48,013 nt of DNA from contig CACJRE010000005.1 in NCBI GenBank assembly GCA_902595745.1, positions 1-48,013 of the forward strand. Reading direction: 5' to 3'. The notes beneath the pieces were generated by a model. The model searched no databases. It had not been told where the DNA came from and saw nothing but the letters and a program-made list of their open reading frames with translations. Shown here piece by piece: positions 6,471-11,494 of the stretch (its first letter is position 1; the number at the start of each line of letters is the position of its first letter). The position numbers and the translations under genes are program-made. The stretch comes from an uncultured Pelagibacteraceae bacterium. GTDB lineage: Bacteria; Pseudomonadota; Alphaproteobacteria; Pelagibacterales; Pelagibacteraceae.

Positions 6471-7227
6471 TTATTCAGCTTTCAAAGCAATTTATCTACA
6501 TGAAATGGATAGATTTAAAAGGACATTAATGCAATCTTTACTATCACCAGTTTTATCTACCTCTCTTTATTTTATTGTTTTTGGTTCAGTCATTGGTGGG
6601 TATGTGGAAAAAATAGATGGTATTAGCTACGGTTCATACATTGTCCCAGGACTTTTAATGCTAACATTATTAACTCAATCAATCACCAATACTTCGTTTG
6701 GAATATTTTTTCCAAAATTCAATGGAACTATTTATGAAATCTTAGCAGCACCAATTTCAACATTGGAAATAGTCTTAGCTTTTGTTGGGGCTGGAGCTAC
6801 TAAAACGCTAATTGTTGGGGTGGTAATTTTCATTACAGCTAATTTTTTTGTTGAAGTAGATGTTAAATATCCCCTTTTGGTAGTTTTTTTACTTATGCTT
6901 GTTGCATTCACGTTTGCATTATTTGGTTTTTTGATTGGGTTAATGAGTTCAAATTTTGAACAAATGTCTATCATTCCAACGTTAATAATCACGCCAATGG
7001 TATTTTTGGGAGGAAGTTTATATTCACTAGATATGTTACCTCCATTTTGGCAAACAATAACTTACTTTAACCCAGTTGTTTATTTAATTAATGGTTTAAG
7101 ATTTGCTTTTTATGGAGTTTCTGATTTTAATATTTGGATAAGTATTAGCTCAATGGTTATTTTCTTATTTATTTGTATAGGAACTGTCAGTGTATTATTG
7201 AAAAAAGGTTACAATATTAAGTCTTAA
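6460..7227 (+). CDS. ABC-2 type transporter permease
   Basis: Overlaps the ATPase gene; ABC-2 permease pattern with six TM segments ([32 protein letters not shown]). Confidence 0.93.
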
Positions 7228-8363
7228 CTACTAGCAATTTTCTTTTTTGGGTCGTAAAAAGGTTTTTCAACAACAATACAGTTAAAAGTGCCTTCGTTGG
7301 TAGTTACTTGAAATTCATTTCCTATTTCAGATTGTTCAACTGAAACCATTGCTAAAGCAATATTCTTTTTTAGCCTTGGTGAATACACTGCAGAAGTAAC
7401 TTTACCAATATTCATTTTATTTTTTTTAAGTTCCCAAAAAGTTGTATTTGGTCCAGCTAAAGGTTTGCAATCAATTTCGATACCAACCTGTTTTCTTGTT
7501 ATTCCATTTTGTTTGATTTTTTTTAAAGCTTCTTTCCCAATAAAGTTAGCACCACTATCTAAATTTACCAGTCTATCAAAACCAACTTCAAATGGGTTTG
7601 TATTAATATCTGCATCAGCATGATACGAGAGCATTCCACCTTCTATTCTTCTAATAGAAGACGTATGACCTGGTTGCAAACCATGTTCTTTCCCAGCTTG
7701 CATAATTTTTTCATATAGTTCATTTCCTTTACTGCCATCTCTTAGATAAATCTCGTAACCAAGCTCACTTGACCAGCCAGTTCTAGATACAATTACAGGT
7801 ATTCCATCTAAATTATACTCTCTTAACCAATAATATTTTAAATCCTTAATATCCTCTCCAAAAAGTTTAATCATTATTTCACCTGATGTGGGCCCTTGAA
7901 GTTGTAAAGGGGAAACATCAGGTTCTTTAATTTGAACATCTAAACCCGAATTAATAGCTACTCCTTGTGCCCATAATAAAATATCACTATCTGCTAATGA
8001 TAACCAAAACTGATTTTCAGCAAGCCTTAATAAGACTGGATCATTTAAAATACCACCTTCATTATTTGTGATTAAAACATATTTACATTGACCAACAGCT
8101 AGTTTTGACAGGTCTCTTGGGGTTAATAATTGGGTAAATTTGAAAGCATCTGGTCCAGTAATCTCAACCTGCCTTTCAACAGCTACATCACAAAGAATGG
8201 CTTTTTCAATTAGGTTCCAAAAATTCTGCTCAGGACTTCCAAAATCTCTTGGAATATACATATGATTATAAACTGAAAAACCAGTTGCACCCCATTTAAC
8301 AGTAGAGTCAAAGTAAGGAGATTTTCTAATCTGTGTCCCGAAACCAAAGTTTTTATTATTCAT
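7224..8363 (-). CDS. dmdA: GcvT-family tetrahydrofolate-dependent enzyme, probably DMSP demethylase DmdA-like
   Basis: Aminomethyltransferase-fold motifs (TPRDLSKL, NDPVLLRLAENQFWLSLADSD, SRTGWSSELGYEIYL). N-terminal FSVYNHMYIP and lack of other gcv genes favour DmdA-like over GcvT, but this is not proven. Confidence 0.6.
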   Translation of the reverse strand: MNNKNFGFGTQIRKSPYFDSTVKWGATGFSVYNHMYIPRDFGSPEQNFWNLIEKAILCDVAVERQVEITGPDAFKFTQLLTPRDLSKLAVGQCKYVLITNNEGGILNDPVLLRLAENQFWLSLADSDILLWAQGVAINSGLDVQIKEPDVSPLQLQGPTSGEIMIKLFGEDIKDLKYYWLREYNLDGIPVIVSRTGWSSELGYEIYLRDGSKGNELYEKIMQAGKEHGLQPGHTSSIRRIEGGMLSYHADADINTNPFEVGFDRLVNLDSGANFIGKEALKKIKQNGITRKQVGIEIDCKPLAGPNTTFWELKKNKMNIGKVTSAVYSPRLKKNIALAMVSVEQSEIGNEFQVTTNEGTFNCIVVEKPFYDPKKKIASS

Positions 8364-8457: not shown

Positions 8458-9732
8458 TTAAAACTGTTCAGATTCTGTAGAACCTGCCATAGCAGTTGTT
8501 GAACTTTTTCCACTACTAATAGTATTTGATACTGCATCAAAATAAGAAGTTCCAACTTCTCTTTGATGTTTAACACTCGTGTAACCATCTTTTTCTCTAG
8601 AAAATTCTTGTTGTTGAATTCTAGAGTAAGCAGCCATTCCTTCTTTTTTATATTTTTCTGCAAGTTCAAATATCGCTATGTTTTGAGTATGAAATCCGGC
8701 TAATGTAATAAATTGAAATTTATATCCCATCTTAGCAATTTCTTGTTGGAATGAAGCTATCTCATCATCGCTTAAATGTTTTTTCCAATTAAATGAGGGT
8801 GAACAATTGTAAGCTAATAATTTTCCTGGAAATTTTTCATGTATTGCATCTGCAAATTTTTTTGCTTCAGCAAGATTTGGTGTTGCTGTTTCACACCAAA
8901 TTAAATCAGCATAAGGAGCATACGCAAGTCCTCTTGAAATAGCTTGATCAATTCCATCTTTTACATAAAAGAAACCTTCTGGAGATCTTTCACCTGTTAA
9001 AAAAGGTTTATCATTTTCATCAAAATCGTTAGTAATTAATTTTGCAGCATTAGCATCTGTTCTAGCTAAAATTATTAATGGAACTTTCGCAATATCTGCA
9101 GCAAGTCTCGCTGATTTTAAATTTTTAACCATTGTTCCAGTTGGTACTAAAACTTTACCACCCATATGACCACATTTTTTTTCACTAGCAAGCTGATCTT
9201 CAAAGTGAACACCTGCAGCTCCAGCTCTTATAAATTTTTTAGTTAATTCAAATACATTTAGCGGTCCACCAAATCCTGCTTCACCATCTGCTATAATTGG
9301 TAACATATAATCAACAGCATTTTCTTTTTTCATATCACCATCTTGAAGTTCCATATGTTGGATTTGATCAGCTCTAACTAATGAGTTATTCATACTTTCA
9401 ACTAATTTTGGAGCACTATCATACGGATATAAAGATTGATCGGGGTACATTTCACCAGCTGTATTAGCATCTGCAGCTACCTGCCATCCACTTAGGTAAA
9501 TTGCTTTCAATCCAGCTTTTGCATGTTGTACTGCTTGGTTACCTGATAATGAACCAAGTGTGTTTACGTATGGTTCAGTATTTAATAAATTCCAAAGTTT
9601 TTTTGATTGATTTTTACATAAAGAATATTCAATTTTTATTGATCCTCTTAATCTTTCAACTTCTTCTTCAGAGTAATCACGCTTAATTCCAGCAAACCTT
9701 TTTAAGTCGTATGAGATATTTTCTGCACTCAT
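8458..9732 (-). CDS. aceA: Isocitrate lyase
   Basis: [14 protein letters not shown] active-site motif, [38 protein letters not shown]. Confidence 0.97.
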
Positions 9733-9787
9733 TATTGTTTATCCTTTGATGTTAATTGTTTACGAAAAATGAAAAAGTTGGAATGAA

Positions 9788-9949
9788 TTAGTTATTATCG
9801 TCAAGAGACTTAATAAGATCGTTCATTCCACTAGAACCCCAATCACAATGATCATCTCGCATGTAGATTCCTCTACTGTTATGTTGATCTAAATCCTCTT
9901 TTTTGATGATTTGAGCTTCATTTTCAGTGTTTTTTAATTTTTTGTTCAT
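9788..9949 (-). CDS. Small hypothetical protein (53 aa) between aceA and the RamB-like regulator
   Basis: MNKKLKNTENEAQIIKKEDLDQHNSRGIYMRDDHCDWGSSGMNDLIKSLDDNN; start at 9949 avoids reading through the repeated operator-like element. Confidence 0.5.
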   Translation of the reverse strand: MNKKLKNTENEAQIIKKEDLDQHNSRGIYMRDDHCDWGSSGMNDLIKSLDDNN

Positions 9950-9960
9950 GTAAATTTTAT

Positions 9961-10051
9961 AATTTACAAAATTTACAATATCCATAAATTTATCTAAAAT
10001 CCTTGTAAATCAATAAAAAAAATTGTAAAAATAAATTTACAAAATTTACAA
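9961..10051. promoter_or_regulatory. Two copies of AATTTACAAAATTTACAA, candidate operator for the divergent regulator
   Basis: Identical 18-mers at 9961-9978 and 10034-10051, each itself a tandem TTTACAAAA-type repeat. Confidence 0.6.
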
Positions 10052-10060
10052 ATAGAAAAT

Positions 10061-11494
10061 ATGAGTCAATTAGATTTAAAAATAGGGCCAAAAATCAAGT
10101 CTTTTAGAAGGCAATTAGGGCTACAAGCAAACAAGCTTGCAGAAGATCTAGGTATTTCTCCAAGTTACTTAAACTTAATTGAAAGTGGAAAAAGAAAAAT
10201 TGATGGTGATTTACTTTTATTGGTATGCGAAAAACTTAACATCAATTTGTCTGACTTAACATCTAAAACAGATATTAATTTACAAAATACAATATCTGAA
10301 ATTTTAGATGATAACTTGTTTGAAGATTTAGATATTTTAGGTCCAGAAGTAAAAGATCTTGTTAGTACAAATCCAAAAATAGGTAAAGCTATAGTAAGGC
10401 TTGGAGATATTTTAAAAAAAAAGGATCATGAACTAATTAATAAGATCGAAAAAATATCAGGTAAAATTGTTGATAATAGAAAAAATTCTTTTCCTGGAGA
10501 AGTTATTTCTGATTTTTTACAAGTTAATAAAAATTATTTCCCTAAATTAGAAGAATTTGCGAATAAAGTTTTTGGAAAAATACAAAAAAATAATAGAACA
10601 AGATATATTGCTTTATGTGAATATTTAAAATCAGAATATTCAATAAAAGTCTTTGACGTGATACCTGAAGAAAATAAACCATTTTCAAAAATTTATAATA
10701 AAAATAAAAAAGAACTTTTGTTAAGTGATTATAGCTCCTTAGAAACAAAAAAATTGCATGCGGCAGCACAAATAGCTCAAGAAGGAGCAAGTAAAGAAAT
10801 TGATACATACTTATCTACTTTTAGTTTTCCTTCAGAGGAGTCTAAAAAATTAACAAAAGTAGCTTTATTGAATTATTGTGGAGCAGCAATATTAATGCCT
10901 TATAAATTATTTCATACGGAGTGTAAAAAACTAAAATATGATTTAGAACTGTTACAAAATACTTTTGCAACATCATTTGAACAGGTTGCGCATAGAGTAA
11001 CGTGTTTACAAGATCCAAAACTTCCAGGAATTCCGTTTCATTTTTTAAGAGTTGATATGGCTGGAAATATATCAAAGAGATTTTCTTTATCAGGTATTGA
11101 TATTCCAAGATATGGTGGTGCATGTCCAAGATGGAATGTTTATTCTGCGCTTACGAGACCAGGAGTAATTCAAGCAGCAGTTAGTAAAATGACGAATGGT
11201 GAAAAATATGTTTGTATCGCAAGAACAGTTGAAAAGGGTATTGGACGTTTTGGGCAAGCAAAAAGTATTTTATCTATTGGCCTTGGATGTGAAGCCAAAT
11301 ATGCAAAAGATTTTGTGTATACAGAAAATATAAATATTAATGACAAATCAACAGAAATTCCCATAGGTGTTTCTTGTAGAACTTGTGATCGTTTGGATTG
11401 TTCTCAAAGAGCTTTTCCACCATTGCATAAAAAATTTGATGTTGACCTTAATTCAAGAGGAGTTTCAGTTTATGTCAGTGATAACAATTCATAA
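10061..11494 (+). CDS. XRE-family regulator with ImmA/IrrE-like domain and C-terminal Cys-rich domain (RamB / short-chain fatty-acyl regulator family)
   Basis: N-terminal HTH (LAEDLGISPSYLNLIESGKRKI), HxAAA(Q/H)IAQE-like region, C-terminal CRTCDRLDCSQRAFP; divergent from aceA. Confidence 0.88.
   Translation: MSQLDLKIGPKIKSFRRQLGLQANKLAEDLGISPSYLNLIESGKRKIDGDLLLLVCEKLNINLSDLTSKTDINLQNTISEILDDNLFEDLDILGPEVKDLVSTNPKIGKAIVRLGDILKKKDHELINKIEKISGKIVDNRKNSFPGEVISDFLQVNKNYFPKLEEFANKVFGKIQKNNRTRYIALCEYLKSEYSIKVFDVIPEENKPFSKIYNKNKKELLLSDYSSLETKKLHAAAQIAQEGASKEIDTYLSTFSFPSEESKKLTKVALLNYCGAAILMPYKLFHTECKKLKYDLELLQNTFATSFEQVAHRVTCLQDPKLPGIPFHFLRVDMAGNISKRFSLSGIDIPRYGGACPRWNVYSALTRPGVIQAAVSKMTNGEKYVCIARTVEKGIGRFGQAKSILSIGLGCEAKYAKDFVYTENININDKSTEIPIGVSCRTCDRLDCSQRAFPPLHKKFDVDLNSRGVSVYVSDNNS

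Follow-up and report, generated by a model that had tools for sequence, protein, structure and literature searches.

An exact 18-bp repeat, AATTTACAAAATTTACAA, lies between divergent genes of a SAR11 genome, which raises the question of whether it is a regulatory site and, if so, for which protein and which genes. SAR11 bacteria are among the most abundant marine heterotrophs and possess few transcription factors, and to our knowledge almost none of their transcription-factor binding sites have been defined. In the window, the whole 48,013-nucleotide stretch of DNA analyzed here, copies of the repeat were confirmed at 9961 to 9978 and 10034 to 10051, where the sequence-only reading had placed them, and no other exact 18-mer in the window recurred within 111 bp. 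Across the 892-kb assembly, exact matches to the 16-bp core TTTACAAAATTTACAA were found at these two positions only. The inverted TTGTAAA copies noted between the repeats were also present, at 10003 to 10009 and 10023 to 10029 (units B and C; minus strand). The surrounding spacer (9950 to 10060; 111 bp) is 87% A+T, a composition that could favor a chance repeat or a low-complexity promoter tract. When the spacer was dinucleotide shuffled, the length of the repeat was attained in 1 of 5,000 shuffles and the count of six TTTACAA/TTGTAAA heptamers in 0 of 5,000 (mean, 0.16; maximum, 3), placing the repeat beyond chance.

The repeat had been described as lying between aceA and the regulator gene. 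It does lie in that intergenic region, but a 53-aa gene (9788 to 9949, minus strand) separates aceA from it, so that the true spacer is 9950 to 10060. This small gene, with the core GIYMRDDHCDWGSSGM, was detected in 78 of the 121 Pelagibacter genomes and, judged by its pN/pS (0.04 in the 15-codon core and 0.32 over 46 codons), is under purifying selection. Its product had no Pfam match, AlphaFold2 gave no confident fold (mean pLDDT, 56.5), and a class-wide profile search returned the SAR11 family only, plus two weak matches not adjoining aceA. The proposed target, aceA (8458 to 9732, minus strand), encodes isocitrate lyase (NCBIfam PRK15063, 725.9 bits; cut-off, 562). A related element reported in front of aceA, AATTGTTTACGAAAAA, was indeed present at 9754 to 9769, between the small gene and aceA, but since no copy was seen there in the compared relatives, it was left out of the operator. 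Beyond aceA lies a GcvT/DMSP-demethylase-like gene (7224 to 8363, minus strand; 390.2 bits, with a cut-off of 410 for the demethylase model). About half of 80 named relatives have such a gene downstream of aceA, at a distance of ∼95 to 110 bp, and in the remaining ones it was not found in the retrieved aceA flank.

Six units could be delineated in the spacer. Box A (9963 to 9978, plus strand) consists of two TTTACAA units, A1 (9963 to 9969) and A2 (9972 to 9978), in a 9-bp direct repeat, and box D (10036 to 10051, plus strand) of two such units 9 bp apart, D1 (10036 to 10042) and D2 (10045 to 10051), ending 9 bp before the regulator ATG. The single units B and C lie between the boxes, 20 bp from each other. 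In 58 distinct Pelagibacter loci, the six pentamer cores (TTTAC at A1, A2, D1, and D2; GTAAA at B and C) were nearly invariant, with the lowest column at 98%, while the sequence between the units drifted. TTTAC was invariant at A1 and A2, as was GTAAA at B and C, and the TTTAC units of box D were conserved at 98 to 100%. The spacing of B and C was fixed in 77 genomes. The start of A1 lay 40 bp from B in 48 loci and 41 bp in 10, and the distance from box A to box D was therefore 73 or 74 bp, or approximately 7 helical turns. Near-invariant cores at fixed spacing in 58 distinct loci, together with the shuffles, leave a chance repeat or low-complexity tract scarcely credible. In most relatives, box A is followed by a weaker third 9-bp unit (TCYAY-like), which corresponds to 9981 to 9990 in the window. 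On its other side, box A directly adjoins a TATA (9958 to 9961) conserved at 95 to 100% in the 58 loci, which forms part of a candidate −10 element, TATAAA, at 9956 to 9961 in minus-strand reading, 6 nt before the ATG of the small gene; box A itself is 13 bp from that ATG. A promoter scan returned promoter-like sites without clear excess over shuffles.

To define how the site is distributed, the B-C-D module was searched as TGTAAA-N14-TGTAAA-N6-TTTACAAANTTTAC, allowing at most one mismatch, in the 121 genomes. Exactly one module was found in each of 77 genomes, these being all 77 in which the 5′ region of the regulator gene was assembled, and none in any other genome; the reversed control gave 0 matches in the 121. 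The regulator was found in 79 genomes, and the two without the module (G013 and G017) carry regulators truncated at the 5′ end. With aceA detected in 80 genomes, the small gene in 78, and the operator in 77, the few discordant genomes were fragmented assemblies, and the discordance looks like an effect of contig ends. Among 19 near-complete genomes, each of the four elements was present in 16, and they were co-present or co-absent. The whole aceA-small gene-operator-regulator cassette was missing as a unit from G009, G022, and G139, three of the 19 near-complete genomes. It had been suggested that the repeat be looked for upstream of orthologous aceA/regulator pairs, where its absence would speak against an operator; no such absence was found, and the units were invariant across Pelagibacter.

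The gene that follows box D (10061 to 11494, plus strand) encodes a 477-aa ScfR-family regulator, the proposed operator-binding protein and regulator of its own gene. It carries a C-terminal ScfR domain (Pfam ScfRs PF09856, 197.5 bits; cut-off, 24), an N-terminal helix-turn-helix (HTH_3, 47.2 bits), and an IrrE-like region (Peptidase_M78, 42.3 bits), and its C-X2-C-X4-C motif, CRTCDRLDC, aligned with CKICNRTSC of PrpR. The best solved relatives were the structures of Mycobacterium tuberculosis PrpR (E = 1.7e-63). The earlier description of the protein as RamB-like holds at the level of the family: the RamB equivalog model NF038139 scored 354.6 bits over residues 8 to 471 against a cut-off of 700, so that the protein is better described as ScfR-family and RamB-like than as Corynebacterium RamB. 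In the acyl-CoA region, Gly was found at the equivalent of PrpR Phe155 and Ser at that of Arg159. In the F155H mutant of PrpR, the succinyl group is contacted by His155 and Arg159, and with Gly and Ser at these positions, the regulator does not directly fit the propionyl-CoA case or that of succinyl-CoA. The regulator is predicted to be an acyl-CoA-sensing protein of the ScfR family.

The invariant units, the single site per genome, the match to known ScfR boxes, and the upstream regions of relatives together support the proposal of an autoregulatory and aceA operator set, and it is very probable that the regulator acts through the six-unit site on aceA as well as on its own gene. The preferred explanation, which we consider probable, is that the 111-bp spacer is the operator of the ScfR regulator, with binding most likely repressing both promoters and an acyl-CoA, perhaps also Fe-S loss, bringing about release. 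Each TTTACAA/TTGTAAA unit would be read by a helix-turn-helix domain, mainly at the tandem pairs of boxes A and D, with B and C in an auxiliary role. The 7 helical turns between A and D could be spanned by a tetramer; PrpR forms a tetramer, as does Paracoccus RamB (PMC10370305). Because box A abuts the conserved TATA at the start of the small gene and box D abuts the regulator start, binding would be expected to repress both the small gene-aceA promoter and that of the regulator. Release would come about when the regulator binds a short-chain acyl-CoA, and perhaps also when it loses its Fe-S cluster.

The same regulator and sites might instead activate aceA as in Paracoccus, with ligand-bound protein on the array recruiting RNA polymerase and box D providing negative autoregulation. 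In Paracoccus, icl expression indeed requires RamB and promoter activity requires the two boxes together (PMC10370305), but the motif there lies 82 bp upstream of the target gene, whereas Pelagibacter box A sits beside the TATA close to the ATG. Moreover, in Mycobacterium a similar unit is present at the binding sites of RamB, which is a repressor of icl1 (PMC6765138). Activation therefore appears unlikely, although it retains some weight. Much less probable is an RNA-level element, such as a riboswitch or other leader in the two divergent transcripts. In SAR11, malate synthase, the second enzyme of the glyoxylate cycle, is known to be under a glycine riboswitch (PMC5069720). However, no Rfam match was obtained in the 48-kb window, and the units, which face both ways, reach so close to the two start codons that there is little room for a leader. 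With the spacer read as an operator, one SAR11 regulator gains a precise, testable site, tied to entry into the glyoxylate cycle, the second enzyme of which has the riboswitch instead.

A motif search upstream of other genes, suggested by the sequence-only reading, was carried out in the same and related genomes and found no other gene carrying the site. In eight near-complete genomes, sites with two or fewer mismatches occurred at about control numbers and revealed no further target. All of the best four off-locus matches per genome fell within coding sequence except one in L044 (at a contig end) and one in L048 (2 mismatches). A recurrent match to TTCACAWAATTTACAA was considered as an extra target and rejected, as it lay inside the coding sequence of two unrelated genes. 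As far as these searches extend, the predicted operator serves one divergent promoter pair.

This distribution also bears on a published alternative, in which the site would be an iron box of the Fur type. In HTCC1062, relaxed motifs resembling Fur boxes were described by Steindler et al. in front of both fur (SAR11_0964) and SAR11_1242, with the cognate regulator left open (PMC3090418). SAR11_1242, annotated as a regulator and two loci on from aceA (SAR11_1240), corresponds to the regulator by synteny only, and by the same synteny its motif probably lies in the same spacer. Iron limitation of HTCC1062 gave weak induction of both genes, 1.58-fold for aceA (p 0.091) and 1.60-fold for SAR11_1242 (p 0.054) (PMC2864753), and the strongly iron-induced sfu genes adjoin them. 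A Fur box would be shared with iron-regulated genes such as sfu and fur, but the module was found at the aceA/regulator locus only in the 121 genomes (a sample without HTCC1062), and nearly all near-matches lay inside coding sequence. In addition, presence of the site tracks the ScfR gene, and its unit, which agrees with known ScfR boxes, is found again next to ScfR genes class-wide. On account of the single-locus distribution and the class-wide association, the ScfR protein is favored over Fur, which we consider improbable, and the small joint rise of aceA and SAR11_1242 would fit Fe-S loss relieving repression. The motif presented there as a relaxed Fur box is here assigned to the adjacent ScfR regulator and is probably explained by its operator, which would provide an owner for a motif described as a potential Fur box in 2011.

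The regulator carries a tandem second HTH in 11 of the 121 sampled genomes (L017, L028, L031 to L034, L041, and L239 to L242); that of L033, for example, has two HTH_3 stretches. The extra HTH domains grouped together, though not decisively (SH-aLRT, about 88), and share a linker, suggesting a single duplication. The two-headed proteins were nevertheless scattered over the tree of the remaining protein, with 6 changes of which at least 2 are forced, a pattern that points to repeated loss or exchange. At unit B, TTTACTTGTAAA was present in 10 of the 11 two-headed cases, compared with 3 or 4 among the 129 remaining distinct spacers, and in one of those four the regulator was broken. A plain Fisher test of this association, which ignores relatedness, gave 5e-12; an independent-pairs test found 2 supported pairs only and so had no power, and linkage alone could explain the association. 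It is tentatively suggested that head number and operator co-vary, with B taking the form TTTAC-TT-GTAAA where a second HTH is present, and that a single monomer may engage the two units of one box.

Among known systems, RamB of Corynebacterium glutamicum (class 1) is an ScfR-family protein that controls aceA and has TTTGCAAA-type sites at several genes. The Pelagibacter regulator shares the family but falls below the RamB equivalog cut-off. In M. tuberculosis, the 17-bp PrpR/RamB box at prpR-prpDC and ramB-icl1 is TTTGCAAA-N-TTTGCgAA, two 8-bp units in a 9-bp direct repeat (PMC6765138). The 9-bp tandem unit is common to both systems, as is an ScfR-family HTH protein with a CoA pocket and Fe-S cluster, both of them predicted in Pelagibacter, and icl is a target there as aceA is proposed to be here. 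The Pelagibacter site differs in its units, TTTACAAA, and in combining two tandem boxes with a pair of single units in inverted orientation, and the regulator has at the 155 equivalent neither Phe nor His.

The boxes of Paracoccus denitrificans RamB, TGACAAACCTTACAG and TGACAATACTGACTG, are T(G/T)AC 9-bp repeats whose mutation abolished binding (PMC10370305). As in Pelagibacter, this class 2 regulator is divergent from a glyoxylate-cycle target and has two boxes with units 9 bp apart. However, the Paracoccus boxes are both direct and 32 bp apart, whereas those of Pelagibacter are separated by more than twice that distance with inverted units between them, and the Paracoccus target is malate synthase-icl, which RamB activates. 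The Pelagibacter gene neighborhood and box fit class 2 RamB. In 21 loci outside Pelagibacter with divergent aceA and regulator, same-strand GTAAA pairs 9 bp apart numbered 14 versus 0.04 expected from shuffles, with further peaks at 31 to 33 and 40 bp. ScfR boxes of this 9-bp tandem form are widespread among Alphaproteobacteria. In L208, from the other SAR11-family genus sampled, there are three tandem boxes; the one beside the regulator start points the other way, and unit B takes the form of a tandem pair. In Pelagibacter, near-TTTGCAAA units in tandem, 9 bp apart, adjoin an ScfR gene and its proposed target, as in ScfR operators. Since the 9-bp tandem unit matches known boxes and recurs beside alphaproteobacterial relatives, the repeat is assigned to this kind on the strength of tests and not only of likeness, and the predicted operator appears to be a well-supported case of a known ScfR type.
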